The notes under the pieces were generated by a model. That model was given only the letters and a program-made list of their open reading frames with translations. It was not told the DNA's origin and searched no databases. Positions 11,950-18,000 of a stretch of 59,400 nucleotides of DNA are shown one piece after another. The translations under genes and the position numbers were made by a program. Within the stretch, counting starts at the first letter, position 1. Each line of letters begins with the position of its first letter. The DNA comes from Phycisphaerae bacterium (GTDB lineage Bacteria > Planctomycetota > Phycisphaerae > UBA1845): the NCBI GenBank assembly GCA_013360585.1, contig JABWBH010000023.1, forward strand, positions 1-59,400. The letters run 5' to 3'.

Positions 11950-12630
<681 letters not shown>

Positions 12631-12754
12631 CGCACCCCGAACCGCGCCCGTCAGGGAGCGGATCGGGGGACGGAGTCCGGCGAGCGCGCGACCACGATGC
12701 CCACGACGACGGGGCTTGTTCGTCCGACGGCGTCGGCGCTCCACGCTGACGCGA

Positions 12755-14151: not shown

Positions 14152-17100
14152 TCACCCCAGCTCCGACAGATGCTCCTTCAGCGCCTCCCGTTGCGCCACC
14201 AACTCCGCCAGGCGCCGCCGCTCAGACTCCACCAGCTCAGGGTCCGCGTTCGCCACGAACTTCTCGTTGCGCAACCGGCTCTCCTTCCCCGCGATCTGCT
14301 TCTCGACGTCGACCAGCTCCTTCGTCGCCCGCGCCCGTTCCGCCGCGTCGTCGGTGATGCCCGGAACGTACACCCGCAACGCCCCCGCGCGGAGGCTGCC
14401 CGCGTTCTTCGGACGCGACGCCTGCGCCGAACCTTCCGGAACGACGGTCACTTCCCCCACTCCCGCCATCCGTTGCACAACATGCGCCTGCGCCCGGAAG
14501 CTCTCCACCTGGTCCGGCGAAAGCACCACAATGGCGCTCACCCGGTCCTTCGGTGAAACCTTGCACGCGGCGCGCAGGTCGCGCACCGCCCGCACCACGT
14601 TCTGAAGCTGCGCGAACACGTCGAGGATCTGCGCCCCGCCCACGGCCTGCTCCAGCGCGGGATACCCTTCCGCCGGCGGAAACGCCGCCGTCGCCAGCAG
14701 CCCCTCCCCCGCGTGCTCCGCCAACCCCGGGTCCGGAAGCTCCGCCAGCCCCGGCAATCCCCGCCGCGGCACGATCTCATTGAGCTGCCGCCAGAGACGC
14801 TCCGTGATGAAGGGGATGATCGGATGAAACAACCGCAACGTCTGATCCAGGCAGAACGCCAGCACTTGTTGAGCCACCGCCCCCGAGCCGCGGGCTTCAG
14901 CCCGCGCGAACGTGCCACGATCATGGTGCTCCGGACTCAGCGAAGGATCCGTGGTATCCGAAGGGTAAGCATCGAGCCGACCTTCGCGCGGGCTGAAGCC
15001 ACGCGGCTCGGACATCCTTCCCTTCGTCAACTCGATGTACCAGTCGCACAGGCTGTCCCAGAAGAAGTCTCGCAGCTCCTTCACCGTCGCGGAGAACTGG
15101 TATTGCGACAGCAGTTCATGCACGCGCCGGCACGTCTGCGACAGGCGCGCCAGAATCCAGCGGTCCTCGGGAAGCAATTCCGAAGGTTCGATCCGACGGT
15201 ACCGCGTTCCTTCCAGATTCATGAACGCGAAGCGCGCCGCGTTCCACAGCTTGTTGCAGAAGTTCCGCCCGATGTCGAACTTCTCCGACGTCTCCCGGCC
15301 CAGACCCAGTTGTTCCTTCGTCTCCGCGTCCGCCCACGGCGTGGCGAACGCCTTGCCGCATTCCTTGTGACTGCACTTCACACGCTGCACGTCGGAGGGT
15401 TGCAGTCCGCGTTCGAGCTTGATCCCGCGCGATTTGCGATTCTGCTCCTCATTCCTGATCGCAATCGCCTGGTCCGTCAGCCTGCCGCAATGCGGGCAGA
15501 CGTAGTTCACCGGCATGCGGATATCCTGCGTCTCGGTGGTCATGTCCGCCATCGTGTAGCGCAGCGCGTCCGCCCCGTGCGTGTGAATGATGTCCACCGG
15601 GTCCACGCCGTTGCCCTTGGACTTGCTCATCGTCTCCCCGCGCCCGTCGAGGATCTTCGGATGAATGTACACGTGGTCGAACGGCTTGCGCCCCATCGCA
15701 TACAACCCGAACATCACCATCCGCGCCACCCAGTTGGTGATGATGTCGCGCGAAGTGCAGAGCACACTCGTCGGATAGTATTGCGAAAGAAAGTTCGGCT
15801 CCTGCTCCTCCACCCCATCCGGCCAGCCCAGTGTGCTGAACGGCCAAAGAGCGGAGGAGAACCAGGTGTCGAGCACGTCGGAGTCGGCTTCGGAAAGTTG
15901 GAGATCAGGATGAAGTTCTTCAAGGAGCTTCACCGAGTCCTCGCCAAACTCTTTCTCATATGCCTGCCTCGCCGCTTTCAATTGCGCAATGAAATCGCTC
16001 GATTGTTGTTCAGGGATCGGGCGGGATCGAAGCCTGAGCACTTGAGCAGCAAGCTCGAACCAACGATGCAGGCGCCAGTCCTCCGTGCATAACTCCCACG
16101 CATACTGCCCCTGCCTGTTGACGCGATCCGTCTTTCGCACGCAGATCCCGCTCTCCGGCATTGCGGACTGAAGGCAATGAATGAGTCTTTCGCGCACCTT
16201 TTGCTCTTTTGTCTCAAGCCGCTGGTCTCCCGACAGAACAGGAGGGATAGAGAACTCACAGACATTGATTCGATGCCCCCACCATAACTGCCGACTGATG
16301 CACCAGTCGCGCTTCTCGCCCAACCAGTCGAGGTAGGATTTCGCGTAACGCGACGGGAAAACCTGGATGCGGCCTTCGATCACCTCATCCATCGCCGCCT
16401 GGGCGAGACCCGAGCCGCGGGCTTCAGCCCGCGCGATCGCGCAAGTGTGAGTGTGCGGTTGATTGTGAGTGTGCGGCTGATTGTGAGTGTGCGGTTGATT
16501 GTGAGTGTGCGGCTGATTGTGAGTGTGCCCTGTTCCCTGCGAGGAATCCAGTGTCTCCGAGCAGGTTGCGCCGGGCGCGGATTCGCGCGGGCTCAAACCG
16601 CGCGGTTTGGGTTCCCCCGTCCGCACAAACCACTGATCCGACAGGAACGGCTCGATCGGCGTCTTGCTGCGGTCGCTGTGGGCGAGGTCGATCTCGCGGT
16701 CTTCTATCTTTTCCACAAGCCCACGTGCTTCGAGATCGGCCACCACTTTCTTCCGGCCCGTCGTCGAGAACTCCAGCCCTTCGTAATCGCCGCTGTGCTC
16801 ATTGACGGAACCGTCCGTTTCAACGATCCGCGCGATCTTCCCGTCCGGCGTCATCACATTGATCATCGGCAGGGGGTGCCGCAGGCCCACTTCGTAGTCG
16901 TTCGGATCATGCGCGGGCGTGATCTTCACGCACCCCGTCCCCAACATCGGGTCGGCCCACTCGTCGCAGATCAGCGGAATTTCCCGCCCGACCAGCGGCA
17001 GGAGCAGCTTGCGCCCCGCCTTCGCCAGGTCGCGCAGAACGAGGAGTAAAGGCAGATGAGACCTGCGGCGCTCGGCGATCGCGTCGAGACGGGCCTGCAA

Positions 17101-18000
17101 TTCCGCGCGGACGGAAGCCCGCGTCTCGCCGGTCATCTCGGCGCGCAGCCTGTCCTCAGCGCGAGCCATCGCGCCTTCCGGGTCCGGATGCACCGCCACG
17201 GCGACGTCTCCCAGCATCGTCTCCGGCCGGGTCGTAGCGATGACCACGTACTCCGGCCCCGTGCCCGCATTCCGAATTGCCTCTGCCCCTCCGTCCCTCT
17301 GTCCCTCTGTCCCTTTGTCTCTTTGTCCCTTTGTCCCTTCCCCCAGCACCGGATACCGGATGTGATAAAAATGCCCCTTGACCGTCTCGTGATACACCTC
17401 GTCGTCCGAGACCGCCGTCTGCAACTGCGTGTCCCAGTTGACCAGGCGCTTGCCGCGGAAGATCAGCCCGTCGTTGAAGAGCATGAAGAAAATGTGCCGC
17501 ACGGCGCGCGACAAACCTTCGTCGAAGGTGAACCGGTTGCGGCTCCAGTCGCACGAGCAGCCCATCAGCTTCAGTTGCGACAGAATTCGCTTCTCATATT
17601 CGTCCTTCCACTTCCAGATGCGGCGGACGAGTTCCTCACGCGCCTCCTGCGGCGTCGCCCCGAGCTGATGCCGCGTCAGCCCCTCCTGCTCGCGGATGCG
17701 CTTCTCGACGACGGCCTGCGTGGCGATGCCGGCGTGGTCCGTCCCCGGTTGCCACAGCGTGTTGAACCCGCGCATGCGATGCCAGCGGACGAGCACGTCC
17801 TGAAGCGTGTTATTGAGCGCGTGCCCCAGGTGCAGCGCCCCGGTGACGTTCGGCGGCGGGATCACGATGCAGAAGGTCTTCTCGCGCGGGCGACCGTCCG
17901 GGCGGGCGACGAACGCCCCGGCCGCCTCCCACGCGGCGTATACGTCGGGCTCCACCTGTCGCGGATCGTAGGTTTTCTCGAGCGTCATGTGCGTCATCAT
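14152..18000 (-). CDS. valS: Valyl-tRNA synthetase with in-frame repeat insertions
   Basis: 1282 aa, about 330 longer than a typical ValS. Class I signatures are intact: PPNVTGALHLGHALNN (HIGH-type), GHRINV, DTWFSSALWPFSTLGWP and the signature ETMSKSKGNGVDP. The editing domain (TTRPETMLGDVAVAVHP, GTGCVKITPAHDPNDYEVG), anticodon-binding domain and a C-terminal coiled coil are present. Extra material includes a zinc-ribbon-like stretch (VCPHCGR ... CSHKECGK) and three repeat-derived segments near residues 221-237, 464-531 and 997-1040. The latter two encode related ends (PRGLSPRE/PRGFSPRE and ARAEARGSG). All keep frame and fall between conserved blocks, so the enzyme is probably functional. No T-box leader was seen upstream. 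Confidence 0.93.
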   Translation of the reverse strand: MMTHMTLEKTYDPRQVEPDVYAAWEAAGAFVARPDGRPREKTFCIVIPPPNVTGALHLGHALNNTLQDVLVRWHRMRGFNTLWQPGTDHAGIATQAVVEKRIREQEGLTRHQLGATPQEAREELVRRIWKWKDEYEKRILSQLKLMGCSCDWSRNRFTFDEGLSRAVRHIFFMLFNDGLIFRGKRLVNWDTQLQTAVSDDEVYHETVKGHFYHIRYPVLGEGTKGQRDKGTEGQRDGGAEAIRNAGTGPEYVVIATTRPETMLGDVAVAVHPDPEGAMARAEDRLRAEMTGETRASVRAELQARLDAIAERRRSHLPLLLVLRDLAKAGRKLLLPLVGREIPLICDEWADPMLGTGCVKITPAHDPNDYEVGLRHPLPMINVMTPDGKIARIVETDGSVNEHSGDYEGLEFSTTGRKKVVADLEARGLVEKIEDREIDLAHSDRSKTPIEPFLSDQWFVRTGEPKPRGLSPRESAPGATCSETLDSSQGTGHTHNQPHTHNQPHTHNQPHTHNQPHTHTCAIARAEARGSGLAQAAMDEVIEGRIQVFPSRYAKSYLDWLGEKRDWCISRQLWWGHRINVCEFSIPPVLSGDQRLETKEQKVRERLIHCLQSAMPESGICVRKTDRVNRQGQYAWELCTEDWRLHRWFELAAQVLRLRSRPIPEQQSSDFIAQLKAARQAYEKEFGEDSVKLLEELHPDLQLSEADSDVLDTWFSSALWPFSTLGWPDGVEEQEPNFLSQYYPTSVLCTSRDIITNWVARMVMFGLYAMGRKPFDHVYIHPKILDGRGETMSKSKGNGVDPVDIIHTHGADALRYTMADMTTETQDIRMPVNYVCPHCGRLTDQAIAIRNEEQNRKSRGIKLERGLQPSDVQRVKCSHKECGKAFATPWADAETKEQLGLGRETSEKFDIGRNFCNKLWNAARFAFMNLEGTRYRRIEPSELLPEDRWILARLSQTCRRVHELLSQYQFSATVKELRDFFWDSLCDWYIELTKGRMSEPRGFSPREGRLDAYPSDTTDPSLSPEHHDRGTFARAEARGSGAVAQQVLAFCLDQTLRLFHPIIPFITERLWRQLNEIVPRRGLPGLAELPDPGLAEHAGEGLLATAAFPPAEGYPALEQAVGGAQILDVFAQLQNVVRAVRDLRAACKVSPKDRVSAIVVLSPDQVESFRAQAHVVQRMAGVGEVTVVPEGSAQASRPKNAGSLRAGALRVYVPGITDDAAERARATKELVDVEKQIAGKESRLRNEKFVANADPELVESERRRLAELVAQREALKEHLSELG
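14883..15011. repeat. REPIN-like inverted-repeat element inside valS (copy A, 129 bp)
   Basis: A left arm (14883-14910) begins CCGAGCCGCGGGCTTCAGCC. A right arm (14983-15011) is its near-perfect reverse complement, with one extra base. A 72-nt spacer separates them. Total length is 129 bp, exactly 43 codons, and it lies in frame. It encodes valS residues from EPRGFSPRE to ARAEARGSG, between the DWYIELTKG block and the QQVLAFCLDQTLRLFHP block of the anticodon-binding region. Confidence 0.85.
16410..16610. repeat. REPIN-like inverted-repeat element inside valS (copy B, 201 bp)
   Basis: The left arm (16410-16436) is identical to that of copy A over CCGAGCCGCGGGCTTCAGCC and beyond. The right arm (16582-16610) is a diverged inverted copy (TTCGCGCGGGCTCAAACCGC). 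The total of 201 bp is exactly 67 codons. It encodes PRGLSPRES through ARAEARGSG between the editing-domain exit (SDQWFVRTG) and AQAAMDEVIEGRIQVFP. Its spacer carries an 18-bp tandem array. Confidence 0.82.
16447..16529. repeat. 18-bp tandem repeat (about 4.6 copies) within copy B
   Basis: Units alternate between GTGAGTGTGCGGTTGATT and GTGAGTGTGCGGCTGATT at 16447, 16465, 16483 and 16501, plus a partial fifth. On the coding strand each unit gives a six-residue His-rich repeat of the type HTHNQP, so the valS product carries a surface segment rich in His and Asn. As 18 is a multiple of three, copy-number change preserves frame. Confidence 0.9.
17291..17338. repeat. 8-bp tandem repeat (six units) inside valS
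   Basis: Six consecutive 8-mers of consensus YTGTCCCT (CCGTCCCT, CTGTCCCT twice, TTGTCTCT, TTGTCCCT twice). Although 8 is not a multiple of three, six units make 48 nt and keep the frame. They encode a Lys/Gly/Gln/Arg/Asp-rich segment (GTKGQRDKGTEGQRD) between YHIRYPVLGE and the editing-domain block YVVIATTRPET. Confidence 0.9.

Follow-up and report, generated by a model that had tools for sequence, protein, structure and literature searches.

Two palindrome-bounded inserts lie in frame within the valyl-tRNA synthetase gene (valS) of a Phycisphaerae bacterium (UBA1845), and we consider it probable (roughly 0.7) that they are non-autonomous members of a Phycisphaerae REP-transposase family that resides in frame in tolerant loops of essential enzymes. 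They were found in a window of 59,400 nt, the whole stretch of DNA analysed (contig JABWBH010000023.1 of assembly GCA_013360585.1; the source genome is called G000 below). The valS reading frame is uninterrupted across both inserts, and by eye its product contains HIGH and KMSKS blocks. A sequence-only reading had given the positions of inserts A and B, their lengths as multiples of three and their edge peptides; all of these were reproduced, and the features are as follows.

14152 to 18000, minus strand: valS, valyl-tRNA synthetase, 1282 aa (NCBIfam NF004349, E 7e-285; TIGR00422, E 8.5e-240), host of inserts A and B
14883 to 15011, minus strand: insert A, REP1 doublet of 129 bp, 43 in-frame codons flanked by ELTKGRMS and AVAQQV in the anticodon-binding domain
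14883 to 14910, plus strand: REP1 arm of insert A, CCGA foot and hairpin; FARAEARGSG is encoded on the valS strand
14983 to 15011, minus strand: second REP1 arm of insert A, one base longer at 29 nt, encoding EPRGFSPRE
16410 to 16610, minus strand: insert B, REP1 doublet of 201 bp, 67 in-frame codons flanked by DQWFVRTG and GLAQAAMDE
16410 to 16437, plus strand: REP1 arm of insert B; IARAEARGSG is encoded on the valS strand
16446 to 16528, minus strand: spacer of insert B, an 18-bp tandem repeat in 4.6 copies encoding HTHNQP repeats
16582 to 16610, minus strand: degenerate REP1 arm of insert B, encoding KPRGLSPRE
17097 to 17128, minus strand: possible decayed REP1 inside valS, encoding ETRASVRAEL; complementarity to the A and B arms 81-88%

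The palindrome shared by the two inserts, REP1, consists of a CCGA foot followed by GCCGCGGGCTTCAGCCCGCG. The earlier description of the arms as nearly identical and inverted was borne out (left pair, 94% identity between A and B over 34 nt; right pair, 83% over 29 nt), with the correction that within each insert one arm is a base longer than the other. Inverted complementarity is 95% over 21 nt inside A and 88% over 17 nt inside B. The candidate at 17097-17128 has 2 mismatches in the 18-nt core; its peptide also occurs in the relatives G001 and G003 and is absent from G002. Folded as single-stranded DNA, insert A forms one long hairpin (z -8.8; 0 of 200 shuffles as good), insert B two separate end hairpins only (z -1.5; 11 of 200 shuffles as good), and single REP1 arms barely beat their shuffles (z -0.7 to -3.3). 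REP1 is open in five of its six frames, a property that we do not claim as special because GC-rich DNA has few stops anyway.

REP1 is a dispersed repeat. Within the window its 18-nt core has five matches (at most 3 mismatches) against 0.56 expected, four of the five being two palindromic sites counted on both strands, and 0 of 100 shuffles reached this count. Throughout G000 (4.24 Mb) the 14-mer CGGGCTTCAGCCCG occurs 44 times exactly and 82 times with at most one mismatch, against 2 occurrences for the reversed control, and a 15-mer of REP1 is present in 35 of the 60 genomes searched, G000 counted. Chance as the source of the repeats is rejected by the window shuffles, the reversed control and this spread among genomes. 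The arm is dispersed in both the rest of the genome and its relatives, and the earlier suggestion of a palindrome tolerated as a coding insert is supported. The comparison with REPIN doublets was apt in part: A and B each have two inverted arms around a spacer, but the foot is CCGA rather than the GTAG type typical of REPINs, and the doublet is a minority form, since an inverted second copy lies within 330 bp for 6 of the 44 exact matches, at 5 loci that include the two valS inserts. A unit of about 104 bp with shared flanks holds 17 of the 44; at L001, L003, L004 and other loci this repeat has one REP1 arm inside and often CTAAATC...GATTTAG ends. Eleven genomes possess a transposase of the REP1 type or a related one, and in these the REP1 15-mer was more frequent than in the remaining 49 (one-sided Mann-Whitney p 0.0026), in a comparison that ignores kinship, includes 3 of the 11 with 0 or 1 copy, and draws on 49 genomes not all known to be in the transposase profile sample.

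We compared the G000 protein with 20 of the 59 relatives searched for ValS. Relatives had been expected to show clean absence at both sites; REP1 doublets are indeed missing from both in most of the 20, but the sites vary in length and are not cleanly empty. The closest relative, G001 (ValS identity 90-92%), has a different palindrome at both sites, a 14-mer of which has 6 copies in G001, 4 of them within valS, as well as 4 in G000, 7 in G003 and none in G002 (reversed control 0). G003, of the same genus as G000, carries REP1 doublets at both sites, and these may share common inheritance with those of G000 because the edge sequences are much alike at both. At site B, three relatives that share with G000 the genus (G003), family (G022) and order (G036) carry a Y1/REP-associated transposase, in frame in a full-length ValS and bounded by REP1; G038 has a Y1 transposase at a different ValS site. 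The sequence-only reading was right in kind but too narrow, having missed these whole transposases at site B. The ValS of G036 has REP-like peptides at two further sites besides its transposase (L091, 2066-2155 and 1427-1453). Site B of ValS in G014, G033 and G034 contains the peptides GTEGQRD, GTKGRRD and GTEGRRG, which resemble the product of an 8-bp tandem repeat at 17280-17338 of the window, within valS, encoding GTKGQRDKGTEGQRD.

The proposal that the inserts occupy loops agrees with the structure of Thermus thermophilus ValRS (1gax), in which site B falls in a loop of 2 residues between residues 363 and 366, and site A in a loop of about 9 residues delimited by residues 657 and 667, the alignment segment at the second of these anchors being weak. 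The predicted ValS model was poor (18 sequences, mean pLDDT 54.5; block means 22-27 for insert B and 29-44 for insert A) and decides nothing, because some conserved parts score about as low as the inserts.

A profile built from three site-B transposases, applied to 397 genomes of the class (E at most 1e-20, at most 8 candidates scored per genome), gave at least 73 matches in 63 genomes. Among these matches, 27 lie in frames of at least 500 aa: 24 inside a host protein, two as N-terminal fusions (to MutS and to a hypothetical protein) and one spurious (G223). Four further embedded copies are two in PurH, recovered by a genome-contig scan that kept 80 of 194 relatives, one in the AlaS of G000, and a second AlaS copy of G048. 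There are accordingly at least 28 embedded transposases: 11 in ValS, 7 in AlaS (6 genomes, one of the copies in G000), 7 in PurH, and one each in LeuS, an MmeI-like protein and a DUF1156 protein; N-terminal fusions to MutS, an EpmA-like protein and a hypothetical protein are left out of this number. With no more than 8 candidates scored per genome and 80 of 194 relatives kept, these counts are lower bounds, and since the searches were seeded with embedded copies the embedded share is inflated. Contig ends truncate the host genes of L238, L241 and L245, and the test of the DUF1156 protein covered its upstream side. The REP1-partner transposase of relatives, in frame in ValS, PurH and LeuS, answers the earlier call for a RAYT-type enzyme; G000 itself had none at the thresholds used and has another type in alaS.

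Where they are complete, the host frames span about 840 to 1690 codons. In G048, AlaS (L243, 3280-8337) holds two transposases at two sites within a single frame of 1686 aa, and three genomes with embedded elements (G042, G046 and G205) are single contigs. The peptide ARAEARGSGLAQ is an example that spans a REP edge and host or transposase. A model of the PurH-transposase fusion was poor overall (mean pLDDT 54.7) and good over the transposase, and matched both PurH structures and IS200/IS605 transposase structures. The ValS transposases of G003, G022, G036 and G038 scored 22.7 to 30.8 bits against a Pfam Y1_Tnp cut-off of 23, G036 falling slightly below, although their HUH and tyrosine motifs are plain. 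Among the plain Pfam Y1_Tnp matches listed, one frame of at least 500 aa was seen (G019); the embedded types therefore belong to the weakly scoring part of the family. Two extra transposases, marked by a Y..NP motif, belong to a different type and lie in frame in LeuS of G003 (L260) and IleS of G038 (L261), both below the Pfam Y1_Tnp cut-off; that of G038 is bounded by the peptides GGTGVSPVQA and GRDARPT. At L133 (53-1324) a transposase is interrupted in frame by a tandem TTPGPNAGVPKDA-type repeat.

Relaxed selection on a duplicate valS was rejected: one locus lies above the valS cut-off in G000 and in 9 of the 11 ValS-host genomes (G118 and G368 lie outside this count). For alaS there is one locus above cut-off in each of 6 genomes, the copy of G018 being split across two contigs, and each of 9 genomes has a single main purH locus, none of these loci reaching the TIGR00355 cut-off as scored.

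The ends of the embedded transposases were compared with those of free relatives. From 149 domain hits, removal of duplicates and of stretches shorter than about 115 residues left 114, and exclusion of L216, whose frame is broken, left 113 rows for the two trees described below. We use "free" to mean not shown to be embedded, a class that includes the long spurious or interrupted frames L133, L165 and L237; 77 of the 82 free rows enter the counts below, the other 5 having insufficient flank. The embedded transposases of the clade that we call clade 1 (the REP1 type) have an inverted REP1 on the right in 11 of 11 cases and REP1 on the left in 10 of 11 (at most 5 mismatches in 24); the exception, G003, shows 7 mismatches in ungapped comparison, its left arm being one base longer. 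A second palindrome, REP2, occurs on both flanks of 15 of the 16 embedded class-3-type transposases (at most 5 mismatches in 23), the exception being L219, and neither palindrome flanks the MmeI-like copy (L204). As a control, the best of 60 shuffles per flank gave 5 to 9 mismatches. Arms on both sides of free relatives were REP1-like in 3 of 77 and REP2-like in 5 of 77.

An ATG lies within 30 codons upstream of 2 of the 28 embedded transposases compared with 63 of the 77 free ones, and a GTG or TTG in the same interval in 11 of 28 and 46 of 77, respectively. No embedded copy (0/28) has a stop within 60 codons downstream, compared with 75/77 free copies, a difference that is partly a consequence of being embedded. 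Some embedded transposases may, to judge from these codons, have GTG or TTG starts of their own. Catalytic residues were scored in 31 sequences, the 28 embedded plus three N-terminal fusions: the first HUH histidine is present in 30, the second histidine and the tyrosine in all 31. The AlaS/ValS type, including the AlaS copy of G000, reads NHVH at the HUH motif and EYVALHQ (Y----Q) at the tyrosine; the REP1-bounded (PurH/ValS) type has Y---Q, not the class-3 Y----Q.

A careful tree of 66 hand-chosen rows of the 113 contained one clade (support 99/91) of 7 PurH, 3 ValS and 1 LeuS transposases, three hosts with zero free members. The class-3 group in this tree held 16 embedded and 10 free transposases, with the free ones nested among the embedded. 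A quick tree had suggested an AlaS-type clade (support 82) that was exclusively embedded; that idea was dropped, and because the class-3 group mixes embedded and free members, exclusive residence is limited to the one clade. A PurH copy common to G046 and G042, two species of one genus, gave a transposase dN/dS of 0.14, alongside 0.30 for PurH before the transposase, 0.11 after it, 0.31 for the left linker and 1.29 for the right; the values come from this one species pair, and the linkers are short. The PurH transposase of this pair is under purifying selection, which may be merely avoidance of misfolding harm to the host enzyme.

Further loci of G000 contain related elements. In alaS (L226, contig C77) a class-3-like transposase lies in frame, bounded by REP2 and accompanied by further REP2 doublets; REP2 copies of this gene have CCGA and CAGA feet, and REP2 has 65 copies in G000 at up to 2 mismatches (control 0). 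At about 4841-5299 of L226 REP2 copies form a tandem array, and beyond it the DHHA1 domain resumes in another frame, so either the gene or the assembly is interrupted at this point. REP2 and REP1 peptides lie in frame in metH between the pterin-binding and B12-binding domains, and REP-like peptides, identified by eye from peptide resemblance, occur near the C-terminus of PurH. No clade-1 transposase was found in G000 at E 1e-20 with 8 of 22 candidates scored; one 34% relative is bounded by REP2, and the 7 kb retrieved around a free Y1 transposase on contig C57 contain no REP1; no link between this copy and REP1 was found. IleS and LeuS of G000 (L258, L259) have other repeat-like in-frame inserts, in which a transposase was not seen by eye.

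We propose that the full element would consist of a REP, a Y1 (HUH, single-tyrosine) transposase and an inverted REP, with the host frame open across its whole length and the transposase having no stop and in most cases no ATG of its own, so that host and transposase would be translated as one protein. IS200/IS605 transposases act on single-stranded hairpin ends, and by analogy the Y1 transposase presumably recognises REP hairpins in single-stranded form. Derivatives shortened to REP-spacer-REP, for example A and B, would fill the same loops as the full element. Elements in frame would survive in loops of essential enzymes, where they would be expressed along with the host gene and any decay out of frame would kill the cell. 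In G000 the REP1-type transposase would either have been lost or never have been present; the REP1 copies there may be relics, because no clade-1 transposase appeared at the thresholds used. That the elements still move, that the fusion is translated and that protection from loss is what selects for residence are inferences. The possible GTG/TTG starts and the weak folds lower our confidence in this explanation. Beyond it, we see an even chance that this is a transposon class normally housed in the frames of essential enzymes (Val/Ala/Leu/IleRS and PurH), its transposase persisting there as a translated domain, moving between hosts and shedding REP doublets, intein-like by tolerance and without splicing.

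The most serious alternative, though an unlikely one, is that the same family inserts everywhere and selection merely spares in-frame insertions in loops, with no adaptation to genes. REPs lie in frame in many ORFs of other phyla, tRNA synthetases included (PMC3733652, in the part of the text available), unrelated palindromes occupy the same ValS sites, free and embedded members mix in the class-3 group, and a GTG or TTG stands near the start of 11 of the 28 embedded copies. Such passive tolerance sits poorly with a clade that occupies three hosts and has no free member, with the near absence of ATG and absence of stops in embedded copies, with the conserved catalytic residues and with the dN/dS of 0.14. 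That figure, and the presence of PurH transposases in genomes of three families, could instead point to a nucleic-acid-binding domain made useful to the synthetases or PurH and retained by host selection; we think this very improbable, as the host enzymes are unrelated, their insertion points differ, most of the aligned ValS relatives have no transposase, and the catalytic residues and REP ends are kept.

Removal of the insert before the enzyme works, by intein-like splicing, by an IStron-type intron or by precise DNA excision, would account for tolerated inserts of at least 200 aa in essential enzymes. Inteins end in His-Asn followed by Cys, Ser or Thr and have a splicing domain. No intein family was among the Pfam/NCBIfam matches listed, HN[CST] occurred within 130 residues downstream of 0 of the 28 embedded transposases, and an Rfam search of 11 loci (E at most 1) gave no intron family and no match at its gathering score. 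Although IStrons offer a precedent (PMC4227781, as far as the accessible text goes), we give removal hardly any credence. Repeats do disturb short-read assemblies, and the AlaS frame of G000 breaks in a REP2 array, but an artefact of assembly or binning is the least credible account of all, given the same architecture in many independent assemblies, three of them single-contig, and the long host frames. Residence of a REP-transposase family in essential enzymes remains our preferred reading.

Inteins and IStrons are mobile, lie within genes and do not abolish the function of the gene. The elements described here resemble them in that respect and differ in that a splicing signature was not found and the insert appears to stay in the product. 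REPINs with their RAYTs (TnpA_REP), for example in Pseudomonas (PMC3116915, in the part accessible), share with the present family inverted doublets of a dispersed palindrome and an HUH/Y1 transposase bounded by the same palindromes; here, however, the transposase has no stop of its own and lies in frame inside essential enzymes, and in G000 the foot is CCGA rather than GTAG and the doublet is the minority form. The accessible text of a survey of TnpA_Y1 proteins (PMC6006769) describes a class 3, a Planctomycetes group with a CnGA foot, HUH and Y----Q motifs and high-copy associated palindromes, and reports that a few unexpectedly long proteins, the products of gene fusions or annotation errors, were set aside. 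Our elements agree with the described class in phylum, NHVH, the Y----Q of the AlaS type, a foot (CCGA) that fits CnGA, and high-copy palindromes; they differ in that fusions are a recurrent architecture and that the PurH/ValS type has Y---Q. Intragenic REPs have been described in frame in ORFs, tRNA synthetases included, and in one instance two species have them at nearly the same position (PMC3733652). They and the Rickettsia palindromic elements resemble the in-frame palindromes in ValS and MetH of G000 (and, by peptide resemblance, PurH), but the accessible text of that paper describes no in-frame transposase gene inside a host protein. We found no report, in open-licence full texts, of a whole transposase inside synthetases or PurH, or of planctomycete RAYTs. 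In-frame REPs and the class-3 planctomycete group were thus already known, and the larger pattern is a new variation on REP-transposase biology.

Mobile DNA could, on our preferred reading, live in indispensable genes by preserving the reading frame and adding one more folded domain, and unusually long synthetases in planctomycete genomes are not necessarily annotation errors. The pattern raises the questions of whether a synthetase-fused transposase still cuts REP hairpins, whether such an enzyme still charges tRNA, and whether expression through an essential gene keeps the element alive. Elsewhere in the window, a REP2 copy with 2 mismatches lies at 12639-12660 on the plus strand, directly after a response-regulator gene that ends at 12630.
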